NCBI GenBank assembly: GCA_913009315.1 | Contig: CAJVZA010000056.1 | Coordinates: forward strand, 1-13,510 | DNA: 13,510 nt | DNA from: an uncultured Hippea sp. | GTDB lineage: Bacteria > Campylobacterota_A > Desulfurellia > JAADFJ01 | Direction of reading: 5' to 3' | Shown: positions 2,608-12,983 of the stretch, one piece after another | Position numbering within the stretch: position 1 is the stretch's first letter | Layout of the letters: each line of letters opens with the position of its first letter | Program-made: the position numbers and the translations under genes | The notes under the pieces: model-generated | Told to the model about the DNA's origin: nothing | Databases searched by the model: none | What the model saw: the letters and a program-made list of their open reading frames with translations, nothing else

Positions 2608-3525
2608 ATGAAAATTGCAGAAAGCAGTTTGGATCTGATAGGAAATACGCCGCTGGTTAAGCTTTCGCGTATTGCCGAAGGCAGGAATCTTTTTGCAAAA
2701 CTTGAATCATTCAATCCATTGGGAAGCGTAAAAGACAGAATCGGACTTGCAATGATTTCAGATGCGGAACAAAGAGGAGTTATCAATAAAGATACCACCA
2801 TAATCGAGCCTACAAGCGGCAATACCGGCATAGCGCTCAGTTCTATCTGTGCTGTAAAAGGCTATAAGCTAATTTTAACCATGTCTGATAGTATGTCTAT
2901 CGAGAGGAGATCTCTTTTGGCTGCTCTCGGTGCAAAGCTCGTTTTAACTCCTGCGTATGAAGGAATGAAGGGATCAATCGACAAGGCGATTGAAATAAAA
3001 AACAGTACGCCGAACAGTATAATACTTCAACAGTTCGAAAATCCTGCAAATCCCGCGATACATAAAAAAACAACAGCGAATGAGATTTGGCGTGATACAG
3101 ACGGAACAGTCGATATTTTTGTTGCGGGAGTGGGAACCGGCGGAACAATAACAGGAGTCGGTGAAAGATTAAAGGAATTAAAGTCGAATGTTAAAATTGT
3201 TGCGGTTGAGCCGGTTGATTCGGCGGTTTTATCGGGCGGTAAACCGGGTCCCCATAAAATTCAGGGTATTGGGGCCGGTTTTATTCCTAAGGTTTTAAAC
3301 AGGTCTGTCATAGATGAGATAATCCGTGTAAAAAACGAAGACGCATACCATACTTCAAGTTCGCTTGCAAAAAAAGAGGGTATTCTTGCAGGCATATCAT
3401 CAGGTGCAGCTCTTTTTGCCGCCCTTCAGATTGCATCGAGAGATGAAAATAAAGGCAAAAATATTGTCGTACTTCTTCCCGATACCGGAGAGCGTTATTT
3501 ATCTGTCGGACTTTATCATGAGTAG
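2608..3525 (+). CDS. cysK: Cysteine synthase A (O-acetylserine sulfhydrylase)
   Basis: This PLP enzyme joins sulfide, or a carrier-bound thiocarboxylate in the CysM/CysO branch, to an activated serine to give cysteine in the cytoplasm. The PLP lysine is K42 in LGSVKDR. The substrate-binding PTSGNTG loop is at 68-74, the phosphate-binding GTGGTITG at 176-183, ISSGAA near 262-267 and LLPDTGERY near the C-terminus. At 305 residues it has the full length of the family. The start is supported by a strong AGGAGGAGG site (2594-2602). It is the first gene behind the promoter, and only a few bases separate its stop from the next gene. Sitting beside a ThiS-like carrier, it could use either free sulfide or the carrier thiocarboxylate. 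The sequence does not settle this, nor whether O-acetyl- or O-phosphoserine is used. Confidence 0.95.
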
Positions 3526-3534
3526 GAGTTGATT

Positions 3535-4749
3535 ATGACATTTACAAAAAAGAGTGCACTTGTGCATCCGATGATTTTAGATCAGTTTGGTTCAGCCGTT
3601 CCTCCTTTATATAAAACAACCTCTTTTGCGCATGATGCTGAATCGACATCCGATATCTTTAGTTCAAAAAAGGCAGGTTTTGTTTATACCCGCATAGGCA
3701 ATCCGACAGTTATGCTGCTTGAGAACCAGATTAATCGGCTTGAAGATGGGATAGGAGCTGTAGCATTCAGTTCAGGAATGGCTGCAATCAGTGCGGTTTC
3801 GATGCTTCTCTGCTCATCAAAAAAGGAAATAGTGGCAAGCAGTTCGATTTTTGGAGGGACATATTCGCTTTTTATAAATATTTTGAGCCATTATGGCGTA
3901 AAAACCGTCTTCTTCAGTTCGATTGATGAACTAAAGCGGGTTATTTCAGATGATACAGCGTTTATATTTGCTGAGACCATAGGCAATCCTTCTATGAAGG
4001 TTGCTGATATAGAAGAATTGGCATCGATCAAAAAAAATGTGCCGCTTGTCGTGGATTCTACGGTTACTCCGTATATTTTTAACGGAAAATCCAGAGGGGC
4101 GGACATTGTTGTATATTCAGCCACAAAAATGCTTTCCGGTCATGGACGAGCTATCGGAGGCGCTATTGTTGATTGCGGCAACTATGACTGGGCAAATCTA
4201 AGATACAAAACATCATTTGCAAACTATTTCGATTTGGGACATATGGCGTTTCTTGCAGCACTAAGACAGCTTTATCTTGCCGATCTTGGAGGGTGTCTGT
4301 CTCCTGAAACTGCCGAAAGTATTTTGACCGGAATGGAAACGCTTGCATTGAGAGTGAAGGAAAGCTGTGAAAATGCAGAATTTCTGGCAGCATTTTTTGA
4401 GGAGAAAAAGCTTAATGTTAATTATCCTAAATTTTCCAGTTATAAACAGACAGCCCGGAAACAGTTTGACGGATATTACGGCTCAATTTTGACAATTGAT
4501 CTCGGATCCCGGGAGAAGGCATTCGAATTTATTGATAGTCTGAAGCTGCCGCTTGATATGCCTAATTTATGTGATACAAGAACGATGGCTATTCATGCAG
4601 CTTCTACAATCGGATCAATGTTGAGCGAGAAGGAGAAGATTGCTTCAGGAATAACCCCCGGATTGGTTCGTATTTCAGTTGGAATTGAGGACAAATATGA
4701 TCTCAAGAATGATTTTTTAAATGCCCTTAGTAAGGCAAAGATACAATAG
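3535..4749 (+). CDS. metY: O-acetylhomoserine sulfhydrylase (MetY type, Cys/Met PLP family)
   Basis: This cystathionine gamma-synthase-family enzyme most likely makes homocysteine from O-acetylhomoserine and a sulfur donor. The fold-type I landmarks are present: YTRIGNPT at 51-58, SSGMAA at 79-84, DST at 174-176 (usually DNT or DNS), the PLP lysine K198 in SATKMLSGHG, and LVRISVGIED near the end. I prefer the ATG at 3535, because GGAG (3525-3528) stands 6 nt before it, over the TTG at 3529; the product is then 404 aa. It is packed 9 bp after cysK and 14 bp before the carrier gene. That neighbourhood matches the Wolinella hcy cluster, where MetY uses a carrier thiocarboxylate rather than free sulfide. 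Related enzymes with other specificity (cystathionine gamma-synthase or lyase, methionine gamma-lyase) cannot be fully excluded. Confidence 0.85.
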   Translation: MTFTKKSALVHPMILDQFGSAVPPLYKTTSFAHDAESTSDIFSSKKAGFVYTRIGNPTVMLLENQINRLEDGIGAVAFSSGMAAISAVSMLLCSSKKEIVASSSIFGGTYSLFINILSHYGVKTVFFSSIDELKRVISDDTAFIFAETIGNPSMKVADIEELASIKKNVPLVVDSTVTPYIFNGKSRGADIVVYSATKMLSGHGRAIGGAIVDCGNYDWANLRYKTSFANYFDLGHMAFLAALRQLYLADLGGCLSPETAESILTGMETLALRVKESCENAEFLAAFFEEKKLNVNYPKFSSYKQTARKQFDGYYGSILTIDLGSREKAFEFIDSLKLPLDMPNLCDTRTMAIHAASTIGSMLSEKEKIASGITPGLVRISVGIEDKYDLKNDFLNALSKAKIQ

Positions 4750-4763
4750 AAGGAGAAAAACGG

Positions 4764-4973
4764 ATGAAATTGATTATTAATGGAAAAGAGGAAAATATCG
4801 CAGAAAATGAACTCTCTTTGAGCAAACTTTTGACCCTGAAGGATGTTAAATTTCCTCAAATGGTCTCTGTGCAGCTCAACGGTGAATTTGTAAAAACAGA
4901 TCTTTATGAAAGTAAGATTCTCAAAGAAAATGATAATGTCGAATTTCTCTATTTTATGGGAGGAGGCAGATGA
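4764..4973 (+). CDS. hcyS: ThiS/HcyS-like ubiquitin-fold sulfur carrier ending GGGR
   Basis: This 69-residue beta-grasp protein reads like ThiS: MKLIINGKEE at the start, then VQLNGEFVK, LKENDNVEFLYF and a Gly tail. Such carriers are adenylated at the terminal glycine and converted to a thiocarboxylate that delivers sulfur. The tail here is GGG followed by Arg69, so the glycine is not terminal in the primary product and a peptidase would have to remove the arginine. A JAMM domain is encoded two genes on. A good AAGGAG site (4750-4755) precedes the ATG by 8 nt. The stop overlaps the next start as ATGA (4970-4973), implying translational coupling. The absence of other thiamine genes and the metY, E1, JAMM and sulfite reductase neighbours argue for amino-acid synthesis rather than thiamine. 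The symbol is by analogy with Wolinella. Confidence 0.88.
   Translation: MKLIINGKEENIAENELSLSKLLTLKDVKFPQMVSVQLNGEFVKTDLYESKILKENDNVEFLYFMGGGR
4961..4967 (+). promoter_or_regulatory. Shine-Dalgarno of the E1 gene made from the carrier's glycine codons
   Basis: The carrier ends with codons GGA GGA GGC AGA TGA. AGGAGG within these codons is also the ribosome binding site of the next gene, whose ATG begins in the AGA codon. The glycine tail that carries sulfur and the initiation signal for the enzyme that activates that tail are therefore the same bases. Confidence 0.7.
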
Positions 4974-5761
4974 GAAATGATGAACTTCTTAGATATTCCA
5001 GACAAATTATTCTGGAACAGATAGGCGGAACGGGCCAGGAAAAGCTGCTCGCATCATCTGTTTTTGTAGCAGGAGCCGGAGGACTGGGTGCGCCGGCTCT
5101 TTACTATCTTGCAGCTGCAGGGGTCGGCAGAATAGGTGTTGCTGATTGGGATGCAGTTGATATCTCTAATCTTCAGCGGCAGATTATTCATTTCACCGAT
5201 GATATAGGGAAGCTGAAGTCCGATTCTGCTTTTGAAAAACTGCACAGACTTAATCCTGATATAAAGATAGAACGGTTTAATCTTCAGATAGATGCAGAAA
5301 ACATCAGTGATATTATTAAAGATTATGATTTTATTATTGACGGAGTAGACAATTTTCCAACTAAATTTTTGATAAATGATGCAGCGGTTTTTTTGAATAA
5401 ACCGTTTTCTCATGCTGGAATTTTACGTTTTTCAGGACAGACTTTCACCCATATTCCGGGGGGCGCCTGCTACCGCTGCATGTTTCCCGCACCTCCGCCT
5501 GCAGGTCTTGTGCCGACATGTTCGGAAGCCGGAATAATCGGACCGGTTGCAGGAGTGATAGGATCTGTTCAAGCGCTTGAAGCCATAAAATATATTACCG
5601 AAACAGGTCAGCTGCTTTCAGACAGATTACTGACATTTGATGCTCTTACCTCGGAATTCAGAACCATAAAAATAAAGCATGCTAATAACTGCCCGATTTG
5701 CGGAGATAATCCAACCATTACAGAGCTGCAGAATACAGAGTTGCCTACATGCGATATTTAA
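4970..5761 (+). CDS. hcyF: ThiF/MoeB/HcyF-type E1-like adenylyltransferase
   Basis: This cytoplasmic enzyme uses ATP to adenylate the C-terminal glycine of the carrier. The nucleotide loop GAGGLGAP is at 35-42, and NLQRQIIHF at 67-75 supplies the conserved arginine. VDNFPTK is at 126-132. The Zn site has two pairs, C167-x-x-C170 and C241-x-x-C244. C184 in PTCSEAGIIGP is the conserved cysteine after which the family can form thioester or persulfide links. At 263 residues it is a typical single-domain member without a C-terminal rhodanese. The start overlaps the carrier stop (ATGA), so the two should be made together. The roughly 210-bp gap after it is unusual for this otherwise tight operon. 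ThiF, MoeB and HesA are hard to tell apart; the neighbours make HcyF the best reading. Confidence 0.92.
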   Translation: MRNDELLRYSRQIILEQIGGTGQEKLLASSVFVAGAGGLGAPALYYLAAAGVGRIGVADWDAVDISNLQRQIIHFTDDIGKLKSDSAFEKLHRLNPDIKIERFNLQIDAENISDIIKDYDFIIDGVDNFPTKFLINDAAVFLNKPFSHAGILRFSGQTFTHIPGGACYRCMFPAPPPAGLVPTCSEAGIIGPVAGVIGSVQALEAIKYITETGQLLSDRLLTFDALTSEFRTIKIKHANNCPICGDNPTITELQNTELPTCDI

Positions 5762-5972
5762 TTTATTTCACGCGCAATGTGTATATTTTGCGGGAAATTT
5801 GTGTTTTGATGCGGAGGATAGAACTTTCAATTGAAAAGATAGGAGTTAATAGAGGTTGTCTAAGAAGATTGCCATGCGCTCTTAAGGTACGCGCAAATGA
5901 CACAATAGAATTTTCGTGCAGACCGGAACAAGACTCATATTAGAATGAATTAAAAATCTGAGGAGATGAATG
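5762..5972. other. Intra-operon gap with a degenerate hairpin repeat
   Basis: No convincing gene lies here. The AGATTGCCATGCGC...GCGCAAATGACAC stretch (about 5866-5903) folds as TGCGC/GCGCA and looks like a diverged relative of the GATTGC...GCAATGAC part of the dispersed repeats at 1601-1713 and 2184-2300. The Shine-Dalgarno AGGAG of the next gene is at 5961-5965. Confidence 0.4.
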
Positions 5973-8570
5973 ATGAAAATAGGAAGGAGCTTATATAACA
6001 AGATAGTTGCCTATGCAGTATCTGAATTGCCGAATGAATCATGCGGTATACTTGCCGGCAGAGGCAGCGAAATCAGATATTTTTTTGCAATGAGCAACAG
6101 CGATATGAGCGATGAGCATTTTTCTATGATTCCTGAAGAGCAGTTCTACGCAGCAAGACGTATAAGAGAACTTGGGCTTGAAATGATAGCTATAGTTCAT
6201 TCGCATCCCAGTACGCCCGCAAGACCAAGTAGAGAAGATATAAAGCTTGCTCTGGACCAATCGGTTCTGTATGCAATTATTTCACTTGCAGATTTTAATG
6301 GTGATAGTCTCAGTGCAGATATGAAACTGTTCCGTATAGCAGGCGATGTAAAAAAAGAACCTCTGGAAATTTTTGATGATAAACCGTATGGCTCGGTAAT
6401 CCTGCCTAAAATAGTAACAGATGATGTAGTTGAGTTTTCAGACAAAATTGACCTTTACAAAAGAGGTAAGATGAGGGAAGCTTCGTTCAAGGCCTACAGG
6501 GTGCCGATGGGAATGTATCAGCAGCGTAATCCGGAACAGTATATGATAAGGATCAGAGTGGCGGGTATTCCGACATCTGCTCAGCTGCAGAAAATTGCTT
6601 TTTTGTCGAAACGTTTCGGCGACGGTGTAGTTCATCTTACTACGAGATCCGACATCCAGATACATGGAGTTACGATTGACGGTGCAGCTGATGTTATGAA
6701 CGGTTTGCTTGAGGTTGGGCTTTCATCAAGAGGAGGAGGAGGCAACACTGTAAGAAATATTCATGCAAGTCCGCTCTCCGGAATAGATCCGGCAGGAGTT
6801 TTTGATGTTATTCCTTATCAGGTTCAGGCAACCGAATTTATGCTGGAAAGCAGGAGTTCGTGGCATCTTCCAAGAAAATTCAAGATTGTGTTTTCCGATT
6901 CGGAAAAAGACAGTGCCGGTGCATGGTTTGCCGATCTTGGCTTTATAGCTGCAAGACGGTCAGGTACAGACGGATTCAGAGTTGTTGGAGGAGGCGGACT
7001 TGGGACTTCTTCTGCATCGGCGGTTCCGCTTATATCTTTTATAAAAAAAGATGAGGCCGCGGCGGCGTGTGAGGCCGGCAAACGATTATTTGATAAAATT
7101 GGAAGCAGGAGCGATCACTTTCGTGCGCGGCTGAGATACGCAGTTGAGCGATTAGGCAAAGAACTTTTTAAAAAGAATTTTATGGAGATTTTTGAAGAGG
7201 TAAAAGGTGAACGAGTCAACTATCCTGATGCCAGATTTAATGATTTTGAAAAGATTAATCTATTTTTTAACAGGACATCCAAATATAAACCGCTCGGCAC
7301 CGTAGAACGCGGATATGGCGCTGTTGAATTTCATCCTGCGCTTGGTCTTATTGATGCCGATAAACTTGTTCTGATTGCACGGTTTTGCGAAAAAAACAAT
7401 GCCGAATTCCGTCCGACTCAGAAACAGGGATTTTATATTGCCCGCTTAAGAGAAAACAAAACGGAAGAAGCTGTCGAAACTTTCAGGGAGTTCTACAATC
7501 CTATTGCTTCGACCGTTCCTGTTTGCTGCGCGAGTGCCGCTACATGCAAGCTCGGCATAGGTTTGTCAAGAGGATTAGCCGGTCAGGTAAGATCGGTTAT
7601 GCTTGAAAAACCTAATAATCTGCTATTTGGACAAATACATATTTCAGGATGTCCCAATAACTGCGGGCAGCACAGCACTGCCGGACTTGGATTTTTCGGA
7701 TCGGCAAAACGAGTAAACGGAAGGCTTGTTCCGTATTATAGTGTAGTCATGAAACGCGGAAAAGGACTTGCGGAATCTGTAGGCATGCTGCCGGCAAAGA
7801 ATATTCCGTCACTGCTTAAAGAAGCCGATTCTCCGGAGGATATTCCCGGTTTGCTGAGCAGATTTCAAATGGTTCCGGATTACGAAAGCGACCCCTCGTT
7901 TTATAAAGATTGGGGTGCAGATAAAGATTTTTCTCTTGCAGGAAGAGGTCCGGGTGAATGCGGTGCAGGAGTATTGGAGCTTATAGATTTTGATTTAACC
8001 GAAGCAGATTCATATTTGCGTTCAGGAAAATTCTATGAATCAATTTTATCCGCTGCCAGATCGCTGCTTGTAATAAAAGGCATAGATACGACTGTTGACA
8101 GAGAGATTTTCGAAGGATTTAAAAGACAGTTTATAGACAGCGGTTATGTTGAAGAAAATGCAGAAGAGATACTTAATGCTGCAATTGACAGCAAGCTCTC
8201 AGGAGCGGCGCTTTCATCATATAAAGAGAAAATAGCGGCACTTATAGCAAGAATCAGACTTTTAAGGGAGAGTCTTGACAGAAATTTGAACTTTAAGGTT
8301 CCTCCTTTGGTCAAGAAATCCGATATTAGCGATAAAAAGAAATCTCACGACAGACTGGATTTAAGCGGCGTGAAATGCCCTATAAACTTTGTTATGGCAA
8401 AGGTAGAGCTTGAAAAGATACCAATAGGAAAAACACTCGAGGTCATTCTTGACGACGGAGCTCCAATCAGAAATGTGCCCGAGTCGTTTAAAAATCAGGG
8501 TCAGGAAGTTATAAAGATTGAGCATCTTGAAGGCATATCGAATCTTATGATTGTAAGAAGGGTAAAGTAA
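5973..8570 (+). CDS. JAMM protease - siroheme sulfite reductase - helical domain - TusA fusion
   Basis: An 865-residue fusion, numbered from the ATG at 5973 (AGGAG 7 nt upstream; an ATG at 5970 is also possible). Residues 1 to about 125 are a complete JAMM/Mov34 metallopeptidase of the Mec/HcyD kind: E22 in NESCG, H76-x-H78-P, S86 and D89. From about 165 to 668 it is a sulfite/nitrite reductase-like siroheme protein with duplicated ferredoxin-like halves. The [4Fe-4S]-siroheme ligands are in C519-x5-C525 (CASAATC) and C560-x3-C564 (GCPNNCGQH). About 668-775 is a helical region with a HEPN-like pattern (SGKFYESILSAARSLLVIKG). About 793-865 is a TusA/SirA domain with C802 in VKCPIN. I infer that sulfite is reduced to sulfide, handed to the adenylated carrier, and the finished amino acid is released by the JAMM domain. 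The JAMM part could also trim the carrier's final Arg. Sulfite rather than nitrite is favoured by context. Confidence 0.9.
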   Translation: MKIGRSLYNKIVAYAVSELPNESCGILAGRGSEIRYFFAMSNSDMSDEHFSMIPEEQFYAARRIRELGLEMIAIVHSHPSTPARPSREDIKLALDQSVLYAIISLADFNGDSLSADMKLFRIAGDVKKEPLEIFDDKPYGSVILPKIVTDDVVEFSDKIDLYKRGKMREASFKAYRVPMGMYQQRNPEQYMIRIRVAGIPTSAQLQKIAFLSKRFGDGVVHLTTRSDIQIHGVTIDGAADVMNGLLEVGLSSRGGGGNTVRNIHASPLSGIDPAGVFDVIPYQVQATEFMLESRSSWHLPRKFKIVFSDSEKDSAGAWFADLGFIAARRSGTDGFRVVGGGGLGTSSASAVPLISFIKKDEAAAACEAGKRLFDKIGSRSDHFRARLRYAVERLGKELFKKNFMEIFEEVKGERVNYPDARFNDFEKINLFFNRTSKYKPLGTVERGYGAVEFHPALGLIDADKLVLIARFCEKNNAEFRPTQKQGFYIARLRENKTEEAVETFREFYNPIASTVPVCCASAATCKLGIGLSRGLAGQVRSVMLEKPNNLLFGQIHISGCPNNCGQHSTAGLGFFGSAKRVNGRLVPYYSVVMKRGKGLAESVGMLPAKNIPSLLKEADSPEDIPGLLSRFQMVPDYESDPSFYKDWGADKDFSLAGRGPGECGAGVLELIDFDLTEADSYLRSGKFYESILSAARSLLVIKGIDTTVDREIFEGFKRQFIDSGYVEENAEEILNAAIDSKLSGAALSSYKEKIAALIARIRLLRESLDRNLNFKVPPLVKKSDISDKKKSHDRLDLSGVKCPINFVMAKVELEKIPIGKTLEVILDDGAPIRNVPESFKNQGQEVIKIEHLEGISNLMIVRRVK

Positions 8571-8573
8571 AAG

Positions 8574-9818
8574 TTGCTTTTACTGGAACAAAAAATAGAT
8601 ACTGTTCTGATAGTAGGCGGAGGAAAGATTGCGGCAAGAAAAGCGGCAAAGCTGCTTGATGATTGTGCAAGTGTTACATTGGTAGCTCCGAAGATTTTGC
8701 CGGAGATACGAAATCTTTCTGCGGCCAAAATGTTTCTAATAAAAGAGAGAGAATTTAAAGATACCGATATTGACGCGCAGGATCTCGTAGTGGCTGCAAC
8801 AAGCTCCAAGTCTCTTAATACGCATATATCCGAATTATGCAGAGAAAAGAGAATCAGTGTAAATGTGGTTGACAATCCCGATCTGTCAACGGTTTATTTT
8901 CCTGCTGTTTTTAAAAAGGGCGGATTAAGTGTAGGGGTTGCCACCTTTGGTGCTGCTCCCGGTTTTGCGAAAGCGATGAAGGAAAATCTTTCAGATTTAG
9001 TTTCGGAAAATGATATGGAGCTTTTGAACAAATATATTGCAGCAAGAAATAGTATAGATAAAAATTTTACGCGCCTTTCCGATCCGCTTGAGGGAACTTT
9101 GGAGCGAAAAAAGACAGGCAAACTGTTTTTTGTGGGTGCGGGACCGGGCGATCCTGAACTAATTACCATTAAAGGCAAAAAGGCGATAGAGGATGCGGAT
9201 CTGATTTTGTATGACGGATTGGTTTCAAGTGAACTGCTGATGCTCAGAGGCAGCAGTTCAAAACTGCTTGATGTTTCCAAGAGAAAGGGCGCTCATGGCA
9301 TCATTCAGGAACAGATAAATAAGCTTATGATAGAATCGGTGAAAGGAGGTCTTAATGTCTGTCGTCTTAAGGGTGGAGATCCGGCGATTTTCGGCAGACT
9401 TGATGAAGAAATTGCCGCATTAAAAAAGGAGAATCTGGAATTTGAAATTATTCCAGGAGTTACGGCGGCTTGTTCAGCGGCTGCAGAGGCAGGCAAAAGT
9501 CTTACTAATAGAAAGAACTCTCATAAGCTTGTTATTTCAACGGGTAATACGGCAGAAAACGACATTCCGAAGATTTTCGAACCTTCCGGCACGGTTATTT
9601 TCTATATGGGACTGACGCATTTGAAGGAGATAACAGCGCAGCTCATCAAAGAAGGTGTAAGCGAAGATTCTGAGGTATCTGTGATCAGCAGAGCGTCGCT
9701 ACCGGGAAGCTGCCGGATTTCAGCAAATTTGAACGAAATAGATTCAGCTGTCAAAAATAGCAATTTAGCGCTGAAATTACCTGCTCTGATTATCGTTTTT
9801 ATAAAGAAGCAAGCTTGA
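8574..9818 (+). CDS. cysG: Siroheme synthase, CysG-like (precorrin-2 dehydrogenase + uroporphyrinogen-III methyltransferase)
   Basis: This makes the siroheme needed by the sulfite reductase just upstream. Residues 1 to about 150 are a Met8-like NAD-dependent precorrin-2 dehydrogenase/ferrochelatase: IVGGGKIAARK at 13-23 and VNVVDNPDL with D100, the position of the catalytic aspartate. About 182-414 is SUMT: GAGPGDPEL at 188-196, RLKGGDPAIFGR at 264-275, IPGVTAACSAA and YMG at 344-346. At 414 residues it is shorter than E. coli CysG, mostly in the C-terminal part of the Met8 domain, so chelatase activity is less certain. The usual GIPLTHR loop reads GKSLTNR. No ATG lies upstream of the Rossmann loop; TTG at 8574 is the only usable start, with AGAAGGG 11 nt before it. 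It is in the same frame as the preceding gene, separated by TAA and one lysine codon. Confidence 0.9.
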   Translation: MLLLEQKIDTVLIVGGGKIAARKAAKLLDDCASVTLVAPKILPEIRNLSAAKMFLIKEREFKDTDIDAQDLVVAATSSKSLNTHISELCREKRISVNVVDNPDLSTVYFPAVFKKGGLSVGVATFGAAPGFAKAMKENLSDLVSENDMELLNKYIAARNSIDKNFTRLSDPLEGTLERKKTGKLFFVGAGPGDPELITIKGKKAIEDADLILYDGLVSSELLMLRGSSSKLLDVSKRKGAHGIIQEQINKLMIESVKGGLNVCRLKGGDPAIFGRLDEEIAALKKENLEFEIIPGVTAACSAAAEAGKSLTNRKNSHKLVISTGNTAENDIPKIFEPSGTVIFYMGLTHLKEITAQLIKEGVSEDSEVSVISRASLPGSCRISANLNEIDSAVKNSNLALKLPALIIVFIKKQA

Positions 9819-10060: not shown

Positions 10061-10795
10061 ATGAAAAACGGATCAAAAATGGAGATAGAACGCTTAGCGC
10101 AGCAATACGAAAAGAGTTCTCCTTCGGAAATAATCAGCTTTGTCGGCAGGCAATTTAAAAATACAGCTATTTCATTTAGTGGAGCAGAAGATGTTGTGTT
10201 GATAGATATGGCTGAAAAAGCAGGTATTCGGATAAAAGCTTTTTTTCTTGATACCGGAAGGCTGCATCAGGAGACATATCGGTTTGTTGAGGAGATCAGG
10301 GAAAAATATTCTATAGATATCACTCTGTTTTTTCCTGATTTCAGAGATATCGAAAAGTTGGTTAACGAAAAAGGCCTGTTTTCATTTTACAAAGATTCTC
10401 ATATTGAATGCTGCAGAATACGCAAGGTCAATCCGCTTAAACGGGCATTAACCGGTCTGGATGCCTGGATTACAGGTCAGAGAAGAGATCAAAATCCGCA
10501 AACGAGGAATGCTCTTCCGGTTATTCAGATTGATCCGGTATTCGGCAGCGGAAATCTTGTAAAGATTAATCCTGTAGCCAGCTGGAGATCAAAAGAGGTT
10601 TGGGATTACATAAGAGACAATCACGTTCCATACAATAGACTGCATGAACAGGGCTATGCCAGCATTGGATGTGCGCCATGCACTAAACCTGTGCTTCCTT
10701 CTCAGAATGAACGTGAGGGAAGGTGGTGGTGGGAGAACGCTGACAAAAAAGAGTGTGGTCTGCATGCAGGGAATTTAAATCTTGAGAAGTTCTAA
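10061..10795 (+). CDS. cysH: Adenylylsulfate (APS) reductase, thioredoxin-dependent, [4Fe-4S]
   Basis: It reduces activated sulfate to sulfite in the cytoplasm. The PP-loop is SFSGAEDVVL (38-47). The cysteine pattern CC at 117-118 and C204-x-x-C207 (GCAPC) is the [4Fe-4S] signature that separates APS reductases from PAPS reductases, which lack these four cysteines. C232 in KKECGLH is the catalytic cysteine that forms the sulfonated intermediate. ITGQRRDQNPQTR (137-149) is the family's substrate-binding arginine segment. At 244 residues the length is normal. AAAGGAG (10048-10054) stands 6 nt before the ATG. About 240 bp separate it from the CysG-like gene, while cysD follows after 42 bp. Because APS is used directly, no CysC kinase is needed, and none is present. 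Confidence 0.94.
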   Translation: MKNGSKMEIERLAQQYEKSSPSEIISFVGRQFKNTAISFSGAEDVVLIDMAEKAGIRIKAFFLDTGRLHQETYRFVEEIREKYSIDITLFFPDFRDIEKLVNEKGLFSFYKDSHIECCRIRKVNPLKRALTGLDAWITGQRRDQNPQTRNALPVIQIDPVFGSGNLVKINPVASWRSKEVWDYIRDNHVPYNRLHEQGYASIGCAPCTKPVLPSQNEREGRWWWENADKKECGLHAGNLNLEKF

Positions 10796-10837: not shown

Positions 10838-11749
10838 ATGATTTCAAAAATAAAATTGACACATTTGGAACAGTTAGAAGCAGAAAGCATTCATATAATC
10901 AGAGAAGCTGTTGCAGAAGCAGAGAATCCGGTAATGCTTTATTCGATAGGCAAGGATTCCTCGGTAATGCTTCACCTTGCGATGAAGGCATTCTATCCTG
11001 CAAAGCCTCCATTTCCGCTGATGCATATCGATACTACATGGAAGTTTAAGGAAATGATTGAGTTCAGAGACAGAAGAATCAAAGAGCTGGGTTTGAACTT
11101 GATTGTCTATATAAATGAAGAGGGAACCAGAAGAAACATTAATCCGTTTATCGATGGCAGCAAGATTCATACCGATATTATGAAGACCGAAGCATTAAAA
11201 CAATCCTTAAACAAATACAGGTTTGATGTGATTTTCGGAGGTGCAAGAAGAGATGAAGAGAAAGCAAGAGCCAAAGAGCGAATCTTTTCATTCAGAGGCA
11301 AAAATCACCAATGGAGTCCGAAGAACCAGAAACCTGAACTCTGGAATATTTACAACTGCAGAATCGACAAAGGCGAAAGCATAAGAGTTTTTCCTCTTTC
11401 CAACTGGACCGAACTTGATATCTGGCTCTATATCTACAGGGAGAGTATACCTATAGTGCCGCTTTACTTTGCAAAAAAAAGGCTTGTGGCAGAATACGAA
11501 GGAGCTTTGATTCTTGTTGATGATGAAAGAATGCCGGTGAGCTTGAGAAAGAGAGCTCAAGACCGGATGGTAAGATTCAGAACTCTCGGCTGCTATCCGC
11601 TTACCGGAGCAATCGACTCTACTGCTGTTACTCTGCCGGGGATTATTCAGGAAACGCTGCTGGCAAAGTTCTCGGAGCGCCAGGGCCGTCTTATAGACTT
11701 TGACCAGGTCGGAAGCATGGAAAGGAAAAAGGTGGAGGGGTATTTTTAA
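10838..11749 (+). CDS. cysD: Sulfate adenylyltransferase subunit 2 (ATP sulfurylase small subunit)
   Basis: It transfers AMP to sulfate to form APS, the substrate of CysH upstream, in a complex with the GTPase CysN. The PP-loop [13 protein letters not shown] is at about 35-47. [21 protein letters not shown] (133-153) is the conserved CysD segment, and [11 protein letters not shown] (189-199), [11 protein letters not shown] (249-259) and the terminal [11 protein letters not shown] complete the fingerprint. The 303-residue length is normal, so the gene is intact. A GGAG lies 7 nt before the ATG, and the 42-bp gap contains a short direct repeat AATCCTTAT. Its partner cysN normally follows immediately, but here the stop is followed one base later by a tandem repeat and an S23 cassette. 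Confidence 0.96.
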
Positions 11750-11750
11750 G

Positions 11751-11931
11751 ATTATGGATGATAAGTAAGAGGTAATAGGTTTTGGGTACTGGGTGATAGG
11801 TATTGGATTTGGGGGTTGAGATATGGGATTTTGAATTATGAATTATGGATGATAAGTAAGAGGTAATAGGTTTTGGGTACTGGGTGATAGGTATTGGATT
11901 TGGGGGTTGAGATATGGGATTTTGAATTATG
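11751..11931 (+). repeat. Perfect 91-bp tandem duplication, G-rich
   Basis: Two copies (11751-11841 and 11842-11931) agree at every position until the last base. The unit starts ATTATGGATGATAAGTAAG and contains G-rich, word-like runs such as GGGTACTGGGTGATAGG and TTGGGGGTTGAG. The repeat begins one base after the cysD stop. Read on the other strand, it closely resembles the C-rich array at about 12630-12680 (CACCCAG-ACCCAAAACCTAT), so it acts as the left arm of a large imperfect inverted arrangement around the four-helix-bundle gene. Confidence 0.93.
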
Positions 11932-11941
11932 GAATTAAAAA

Positions 11942-12055
11942 ATGAAAGAAGAAAATTTAATTAAGGGAAAAAGTTATAATTTTGCATTAGAAGCTATAAA
12001 GCTCTACAGATGTGTAGGTGTCGGTGTATGTGTGAGTGTGGGTGAAGATAAATGA
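11942..12055 (+). pseudogene. N-terminal remnant of a second S23/four-helix-bundle gene
   Basis: The frame from ATG 11942 gives MKEENLIKGKSYNFALEAIK plus LYR, the classic start of S23/TIGR02436 four-helix-bundle proteins (KSYxFALxxVKLY). From about 12011 it runs into the GT-rich repeat, reads as CVGVGVCVSVGEDK and stops at 12053-12055. Only 37 residues remain of a family of about 115-125. The conserved second part (LxxQLLRSxTSIGANxxEA) is not found nearby. The stop overlaps the start of the intact gene as ATGA, so this leader peptide could still be translated and coupled. I read it as a copy destroyed by the event that brought in the downstream gene and its repeats. Confidence 0.6.
12024..12040. 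repeat. Left arm of perfect 17-bp inverted repeat around the S23 gene
   Basis: GTGTATGTGTGAGTGTG lies 11 nt before the S23 ATG. Its exact reverse complement stands at 12426-12442, 8 nt after the stop. The sequence is simple (GT-type), but the match is exact and symmetric about the gene. Confidence 0.85.
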
Positions 12056-12417
12056 TTAAATCTGTTGAAGAATTGGATGTGTACAAGAAAGCACATGAGC
12101 TAACATTAAAACTATATAAAATTACCAAAATTTTTCCAAATGATGAAAAGTTTGGGCTAATTTCTCAAATCAGGAGAGCTGCGTCTTCAATAAATGCGAA
12201 TCTTTTGGAAGGAAGTCATAGGATAAACACTAAAGAGTTTAGACAATTTTGCGGTATAGCAAGAGGTTCTGCAGGAGAATTGAAGTATCATTTGTTGTTA
12301 GCAAAAGATTTAGGGTATATTGCAACTGAGAACTATGATTTATTGATTGAAGAGATTGAAACAATAACAAAGATGCTTTATGGTCTAATAAAATCACTCT
12401 CAGGATTATCCAAATGA
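12052..12417 (+). CDS. Four helix bundle protein (S23 / 23S rRNA intervening-sequence family)
   Basis: A complete 121-residue member of the TIGR02436 family: VEELDVYKKAHELTLKLYKI, then FPNDEKFGLISQIRRAASSI, NANLLEGSHR and LKYHLLLAKDLGYI. The family forms small alpha-helical bundles, is encoded in 23S rRNA intervening sequences in some bacteria, and is related to the Avd accessory proteins of diversity-generating retroelements. Its molecular job outside those settings is not established. Here it is neither in an rRNA gene nor beside a reverse transcriptase or variable repeat that I can see. It is framed by an exact 17-bp inverted repeat and by G-rich and C-rich arrays, and it starts inside the stop of a truncated sibling. 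There is no clear Shine-Dalgarno; GGTGAAG ends 4 nt before the ATG. The layout suggests a small mobile or recombining cassette. Confidence 0.93.
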   Translation: MIKSVEELDVYKKAHELTLKLYKITKIFPNDEKFGLISQIRRAASSINANLLEGSHRINTKEFRQFCGIARGSAGELKYHLLLAKDLGYIATENYDLLIEEIETITKMLYGLIKSLSGLSK

Positions 12418-12442: not shown

Positions 12443-12512
12443 AAATTTGGCAAATATCAAAAATGATAAAAAACTTAATAAAATATAGGATAGACAATGA
12501 CAAAACTAAATA

Positions 12513-12697
12513 ATCAATCCAAAACCCAGCACCCAATACCCAGCACCCACAACCTAAAACCCAGTACCCACAACCCAGCACCCAGTGCCTTTACATCCAC
12601 TCACACTCACACTCACACCTACACTTACACCCATCACCCAGCACCCAAAACCTATAACCTATCACCCATTACTCTTCACTCTTCACCCATCACTCTA
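12513..12697 (+). repeat. C-rich minisatellite of variable ACCCAGC-type words
   Basis: It consists of degenerate short units such as ACCCAGC, ACCCAAT, ACCCACA, ACCTATA and CACCCAT, with a CACTCACACTCACAC block in the middle (about 12598-12617). The other strand carries the complementary G-runs. The part at about 12630-12680 mirrors the 91-bp G-rich unit on the far side of the S23 gene. An open frame across it gives a Thr/His/Pro/Asn low-complexity peptide and is not a credible gene. Confidence 0.85.
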
Positions 12698-12764: not shown

Positions 12765-12983
12765 CTAAGCTGAGATTATCTGCCGCTCAGACGGCACCCT
12801 GTTCAAAATAATTTCCTTAAGGTTGATCTTCCTGCTGGCATTATCAATATCTATACCGGTTATCTGGCCATCTTTATCATAGTCGATGACAATACCTTCG
12901 GATACCTCTATGCTATCAGCGCTTGGCTTGGAAGACAGATCGATATAAAGCGAATCTGTTTCAAGATAATAATTTATCTTCAT
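12765..12983 (-). CDS. DUF2283 domain protein (72 aa)
   Basis: MKINYYLETDSLYIDLSSKP, then EVSEGIVIDYDKDGQITGIDIDNASRKI: this is the DUF2283 pattern of a small beta-rich protein of unknown function, complete at 72 residues. It has an excellent AGGAGG site 8 nt before the ATG. Members of this family are commonly found as the second gene of a two-gene unit with a short partner. The partner is present here, and its stop overlaps this start as ATGA, so translation is probably coupled. The layout resembles a toxin-antitoxin pair, but no such function has been shown for it that I know of. Confidence 0.9.
   Translation of the reverse strand: MKINYYLETDSLYIDLSSKPSADSIEVSEGIVIDYDKDGQITGIDIDNASRKINLKEIILNRVPSERQIISA

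Follow-up and report, generated by a model that had tools for sequence, protein, structure and literature searches.

The window, that is, the whole 13,510-nucleotide stretch of DNA analysed here, encodes a single polypeptide that joins a JAMM protease domain, a siroheme sulfite reductase (SiR) module, a putative HEPN-like helical domain and a TusA-like domain, and this fusion protein probably both reduces sulfite and processes the carrier, in one chain, for a protein-thiocarboxylate sulfate assimilation pathway of the HcyS/HcyF/HcyD/MetY type. JAMM-SiR-HEPN-TusA is a recurrent but rare fusion within this known pathway. The complete gene (5973..8570, plus strand) is a single open frame encoding 865 amino acids, or 866 if translation starts at the ATG at 5970 rather than the one at 5973; the frame runs uninterrupted to the stop codon at 8568-8570 and is preceded by a Shine-Dalgarno-like GAGGAG (5960-5965). 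The domain order is Prok-JAB, NIR_SIR_ferr/NIR_SIR, a helical stretch and TusA. A preliminary description of this DNA had proposed four parts in one 865-aa chain with all catalytic landmarks intact; the open frame, the Pfam matches and the HEPN-matching homologues bear out the former claim, and a motif scan that recovers the key residues of JAMM, SiR and TusA bears out the latter.

The fusion gene is present as a single copy in its source genome, a metagenome-assembled genome of 96 contigs that is 88% complete. Such a fragmented genome, together with the odd ends of this contig (a gyrA fragment and repeats), could point to a wrong assembly join without a frameshift or to a binning error. However, in an independent second species (G001, JAADFJ010000038.1) a JAMM-SiR fusion reads across the junction to the contig end with 95% amino acid identity, and the flanking cysK, OAHS, ThiS and E1 genes match those of the window. 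The two sequences differ by a dS of 0.28 and a dN of 0.025, with dN/dS of about 0.10 in the JAMM part, 0.13 in the linker and 0.08 in the SiR, as expected under purifying selection. Since G001 shares the junction and dN/dS is near 0.1 in all three segments, the fusion is not an assembly join, and with the same architecture also present in G447 and G494 we rejected an artefact, the chance of which is negligible. Both circumstances that would have counted against the preliminary description were thus looked for: no frameshift or join was detected at a domain boundary, and homologues are not encoded separately in every case, being fused in G447 and G494. A third genome (G002, JALWSW010000158.1), whose contig begins within the SiR, matches the window at 75% over SiR-HEPN-TusA.

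The N-terminal JAMM/Prok-JAB domain (residues 1-122, 5973..6338, plus strand) is matched by PF14464 (1.2e-19) over residues 6-105, above the curated cut-off. The motif scan located its zinc site as E22 together with H76-S-H78-x7-S86-x2-D89 (HSHPSTPARPSRED at residues 76-89); with the Glu, the H-[ST]-H-x7-S-x2-D signature and the Pfam score, the domain belongs to the JAMM/MPN+ group, and a relative in the PDB is 2kks (3.7e-22). A comparison of fused with separate genes indicates that the linker that follows (about residues 123-165, 6339..6467, plus strand) corresponds to the C-terminus of separate JAMM proteins and the N-terminus of separate SiR proteins.

The siroheme [4Fe-4S] SiR module (about residues 166-640, 6468..7892, plus strand) was identified by alignments and by Pfam matches, all above cut-offs, to NIR_SIR_ferr (residues 182-247 and a second copy, 2.4e-22) and NIR_SIR (residues 257-408, 9.6e-29). 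The scan identified its basic residues in TTR225, NTVR261N and LPRK302FK304, and the cluster and siroheme cysteines in C519-x5-C525 and C560-x3-C564; across an alignment of 22 relatives, R225, R261, K302, K304, C519, C525, C560, C564, C663 and C802 vary little or not at all. The C-x5-C...C-x3-C pattern, the two Arg and two Lys and the two NIR_SIR_ferr halves place the module among NirA/CysI-type reductases. Its best solved relative is a plant nitrite reductase (3b0h), whose LPRKWN aligns with the LPRKFK of the fusion. The Lys that replaces Asn at the second lysine position of LPRKFK (K304) is the sulfite reductase pattern, and because of K304 and the adjacent siroheme synthase and APS reductase genes the predicted substrate is sulfite rather than nitrite; a role as nitrite reductase was rejected on the same grounds. 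The best NCBIfam matches to the CysI, Sir and NirA equivalogs are far below their cut-offs (e.g. PRK09566, 176 versus 594), and this SiR therefore represents a separate subfamily.

Between the SiR and the helical domain the alignment revealed a GECxAG motif (7953..7970, plus strand) with a near-invariant Cys663 (codon 7959-7961). Because this cysteine is kept even in L068, a member that has no TusA domain, it belongs to the reductase module; that Cys663 takes part in sulfur hand-over from the SiR is speculation on our side. The helical domain itself (about residues 664-789, 7962..8339, plus strand) was assigned through homologue and family profile matches: the window's own segment does not match the Pfam HEPN model (PF05168), while 10 of 31 homologous segments do (best 1.5e-8), and one homologous protein, the TusA-less L068, exceeds the gathering score of 22 bits with 30.7. 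The family profile retrieves solved HEPN proteins (9xbd, E=3.9e-4; 9xbc; 2hsb, 0.026), and hhalign matches the helical segments of carrier-linked proteins with those of the unlinked group (5e-19). These matches support a HEPN-like assignment as a fold, in agreement with the preliminary description. The RX4-6H RNase motif is absent from the window's domain and no conserved motif is seen among its relatives, which led us to reject an RNase role; the domain would instead be a non-catalytic spacer, structural or for dimerisation.

The C-terminal TusA-like domain (8340..8567, plus strand; PF01206, 2e-16, residues 794-857, above cut-off) has the TusA fold and the conserved cysteine, Cys802, of the TusA superfamily. 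Its motif is CPIN rather than the canonical CPxP, and CP[ILMFY]N is found in all 39 SiR-attached TusA domains inspected. A separate canonical CPxP TusA is encoded elsewhere in the same genome (contig C50), and L054, L055, L070, L139, L140, L143, L145, L147, L150 and L151 have, besides the fused CPxN domain, a stand-alone CPxT TusA (mostly CPMT) encoded between E1 and JAMM. Since all 39 attached domains are CPxN, while CPxP and CPxT proteins exist separately, the attached TusA is, judging from these motifs, a distinct subfamily that should not be classed as canonical TusA. Linked to SiR across many bacterial families, the CPxN group is apparently a sulfur-transfer subfamily that has yet to be characterised.

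The fusion gene is embedded in a plus-strand sulfur-assimilation operon. Upstream lie cysteine synthase (CysK, 2608..3525, TIGR01139 above cut-off), an O-acetylhomoserine sulfhydrylase-like, MetY-like PLP enzyme (3529..4749, PF01053; best NCBIfam match TIGR01326, below cut-off; PDB relatives 7kb0 and 3ri6), a ThiS-like sulfur carrier (4764..4973, TIGR01683 above cut-off) and an E1-like ThiF/MoeB adenylyltransferase without a rhodanese domain (4970..5761, PF00899, 1.3e-79). Downstream are siroheme synthase, comprising precorrin-2 dehydrogenase and uroporphyrinogen-III methyltransferase (8574..9818, TIGR01469 and TIGR01470 above cut-off), an APS reductase of the CysH family (10061..10795, TIGR02055, 268 bits versus a cut-off of 235) and the sulfate adenylyltransferase subunit CysD (10838..11749, TIGR02039 above cut-off); no cysN follows cysD on the contig, and an Rfam scan found no riboswitch. 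Carrier and E1, the partners that the preliminary description had assigned to the fusion, are thus encoded directly upstream of it. The ThiS-like carrier, rhodanese-less E1, JAMM, OAH sulfhydrylase and SiR of an Hcy-type pathway are all encoded together, and the set ThiS-OAHS-E1-JAMM-(SiR-HEPN-TusA)-CysH-CysD recurs in many families.

The carrier's C-terminus, EFLYFMGGGR, bears directly on the need for a protease. In most relatives, as in the window and G001 (both GGGR), residues follow the Gly-Gly: the tails are GGG plus R, K, A, Y, QR, RF, EL, SR and others, with only L056 and L147 stopping at GGG. In three loci the carrier is fused in frame, through EFLYFMGGG, to the O-acetylhomoserine sulfhydrylase (L054, 13492-14928; L139, 8890-10341; L140, 10744-12210; all on the minus strand), an arrangement that is polyprotein-like and in which the operon's JAMM could be the cutter. 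Carriers that are extended past GGG, or fused to the sulfhydrylase, require a protease.

A survey of at least 855 distinct genomes showed how the fusion is distributed. Three-part SiR-HEPN-TusA proteins occur in many other bacterial families, where a JAMM gene usually directly precedes them; within the window's class, the protein was not found outside its own genus among the genomes searched. Among the 41 loci in the tree, JAMM is a separate neighbour in 21, often overlapping the adjacent gene, is fused in 3 and is absent from the vicinity in 16, some of which are cut by a contig end, with one locus unjudgeable. For one large SiR-HEPN-TusA clade, the gene neighbourhoods contain neither carrier nor E1 nor JAMM. 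Full fusions are carried by the window's genus, G447 (889-aa frame) and G494 (915-aa frame). In the maximum-likelihood tree the window's genus falls into a single clade with G447 (100/99), whereas G494 groups with G631 (96/90), whose JAMM is separate; with G494 paired with an unfused relative, the JAMM-SiR fusion has at least two origins. G571 (L137) has a gene (7363-8787, plus strand) that joins JAMM to a short siroheme reductase of Dsr/AsrC-like type carrying a 4Fe-4S ferredoxin insert (best NCBIfam match TIGR02912, below cut-off), and the overlapping downstream gene (8687-9031, plus strand) is a CPxN TusA; this is a further independent JAMM association, with another reductase class. The preliminary description was incomplete here: the SiR-HEPN-TusA part is a widespread standard protein, only the addition of JAMM is rare, and the full fusion is not unique, since G447 and G494 have it too. 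Three apparent fusions were discarded on inspection: in G549 JAMM and SiR are separate ORFs, and in G359 and G374 the frame reads through a TAA stop. A search of plasmids yielded only SiR or SiR-HEPN-like relatives below 80% query coverage, and a search of viruses one partial relative. Our literature search found no description of a JAMM-SiR-HEPN-TusA fusion, although subscription papers may hold one, and no biochemistry on any member of the family. As a separate observation, a 418-aa open frame in L055 (10701-11954, minus strand) ends in a JAMM domain and also encodes an FTR1-like iron permease domain.

The closest characterised system is that of Wolinella succinogenes, whose protein-thiocarboxylate methionine pathway Krishnamoorthy and Begley reportedly reconstituted in 2011. 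There the JAMM protein HcyD is said to take the C-terminal alanine off the carrier HcyS, which HcyF adenylates; bisulfide from sulfite reductase reportedly attacks the carrier adenylate directly to give the thiocarboxylate, free bisulfide being sufficient; and MetY is reported to join the thiocarboxylate to O-acetylhomoserine, after which HcyD frees homocysteine. Like the window, Wolinella has an extended carrier (HcyS), a rhodanese-less E1 (HcyF), JAMM, OAH sulfhydrylase (MetY) and SiR (Sir), with the sulfate-reduction genes in one cluster; the window differs in having JAMM, SiR, HEPN and TusA in one polypeptide and in a carrier tail of Arg rather than Ala. The CysO/CysM/Mec+ pathway of Mycobacterium likewise uses a carrier thiocarboxylate and an amino-acid-freeing JAMM; unlike the window, it has no SiR or TusA fusion and its product is cysteine, not homocysteine. 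Three-part SiR-HEPN-TusA proteins share the order of the last three domains, GECxAG and the CPxN TusA with the window but lack the JAMM domain, JAMM being a separate upstream gene or absent. Row 4e of Iyer, Burroughs and Aravind (2006; PMC1779556) is the window's operon type, listed for Wolinella, Geobacter, Desulfitobacterium and others; in these neighbourhoods the E1 always lacks rhodanese and a SirA/TusA-like protein, predicted to stand in for it, is always present. The authors propose from gene neighbourhoods that assimilated sulfur passes to a ThiS-like protein, and the text consulted describes actinobacterial ThiS-sulfite reductase fusions, but no JAMM-SiR-HEPN-TusA chain. The carrier/E1 route of the preliminary description thus stands, but as a link already predicted in 2006 (PMC1779556). 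PMC5764234 and PMC6225789 cite the Wolinella pathway work of Krishnamoorthy and Begley (2011; doi 10.1021/ja107424t).

By analogy with the known pathway, JAMM would first remove the C-terminal Arg that follows GGG on the ThiS-like carrier, and the exposed glycine would be adenylated by E1. The SiR module would reduce sulfite, produced from sulfate via CysD(N) and the APS reductase, using siroheme supplied by the neighbouring CysG. The sulfur would then reach the carrier as a thiocarboxylate, and in this step the CPxN TusA domain may serve as relay or docking site, taking the place of the rhodanese domain absent from the E1. The MetY-like enzyme would join the carrier thiocarboxylate to O-acetylhomoserine, and JAMM would cut the resulting carrier-homocysteine to yield homocysteine and regenerated carrier. 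That JAMM has been fused to SiR repeatedly, including to a second SiR type, supports a physical link between carrier processing and sulfite reduction: with two kinds of SiR joined to JAMM independently, nature itself supplies evidence for coupling of the steps. Channelling of sulfur through the chain is plausible; structure predictions (mean pLDDT 35 for the full chain with a three-sequence alignment, 38 for HEPN-TusA as a single sequence) were too poor for domain contacts. At stake is whether sulfite sulfur reaches ubiquitin-like carriers as free sulfide or by a protein-bound relay, and with SiR, a TusA-type cysteine and the carrier protease in one chain the question is testable in one purified protein.

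The redox state of the sulfur constrains any relay, including the proposal in the preliminary description that sulfur is held on the TusA cysteine. Siroheme SiR normally releases fully reduced sulfide, S(-II), and a TusA persulfide needs S(0); because the sulfide is already fully reduced, a persulfide would require either later oxidation or, as in DsrAB-DsrC, a hand-over that precedes transfer of the final two electrons; absent both, the TusA domain may instead dock E1 and carrier. The chain could in principle be an assimilatory counterpart of DsrAB-DsrC, in which siroheme S(0) moves to Cys663 and/or Cys802 and straight on to the adenylated carrier, which an assembly of the same-chain JAMM and the E1 would hold, with no free sulfide. 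The likeness, a siroheme reductase with a cysteine-bearing sulfur acceptor, is by analogy only, whereas the window's enzyme is of the assimilatory NirA/CysI type and its acceptor a TusA-fold domain of the same chain; we consider this version unlikely, but if true, sulfite sulfur would reach homocysteine without a free sulfide stage. Somewhat less doubtful is that the same pathway runs without coupling, the fusion only equalising expression, free sulfide reacting with both the carrier adenylate and CysK, and TusA being left over as a docking or regulatory element. Most relatives encode JAMM separately, in a neighbouring and often overlapping gene, so that adjacency alone could yield a fusion; the operon has a sulfide-type CysK above cut-off; and direct bisulfide attack is reportedly the Wolinella chemistry, where free bisulfide suffices and a TusA relay is therefore not required. 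The recurrence of the JAMM-SiR fusion, other SiR type included, speaks against it, as does the conservation, in all copies inspected, of the cysteine in the attached TusA and of the CPxN around it.

Since a large SiR-HEPN-TusA clade lacks carrier, E1 and JAMM nearby, the TusA domain need not serve the carrier, and the many members of this kind argue that the SiR-HEPN-TusA core is useful by itself. That clade would also fit a TusA domain that takes S(0) from siroheme for other acceptors, such as tRNA thiolation or the molybdenum cofactor, with carrier loading separate. However, the gene sits between E1/JAMM and CysH/CysD in the window and in more than 20 relatives, and the genome's separate CPxP TusA is available elsewhere, so we regard this as improbable. 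Less likely still is that JAMM mainly strips the carrier from modified proteins, as in a ubiquitin-like system, rather than processing it for sulfur transfer: among NCBIfam models the JAMM part scores highest with haloarchaeal desampylase, below cut-off, but its neighbours are all sulfur-assimilation enzymes.

Outside the operon the contig holds a gyrA fragment (196-1368; DNA_topoisoIV, residues 8-208) that continues in frame into unrelated sequence from about residue 206, where GC falls to 31%; either an insertion may have interrupted gyrA or the end of the contig may be a misjoin. Directly 3' of cysD lies an exact 90-base tandem duplication (11751-11931), and further short C+A-rich repeats occupy 12495-12693. 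The contig also encodes a 23S rRNA intervening-sequence (four-helix bundle) protein (12052-12417) and, on the minus strand, a DUF2283 protein (12765-12983).
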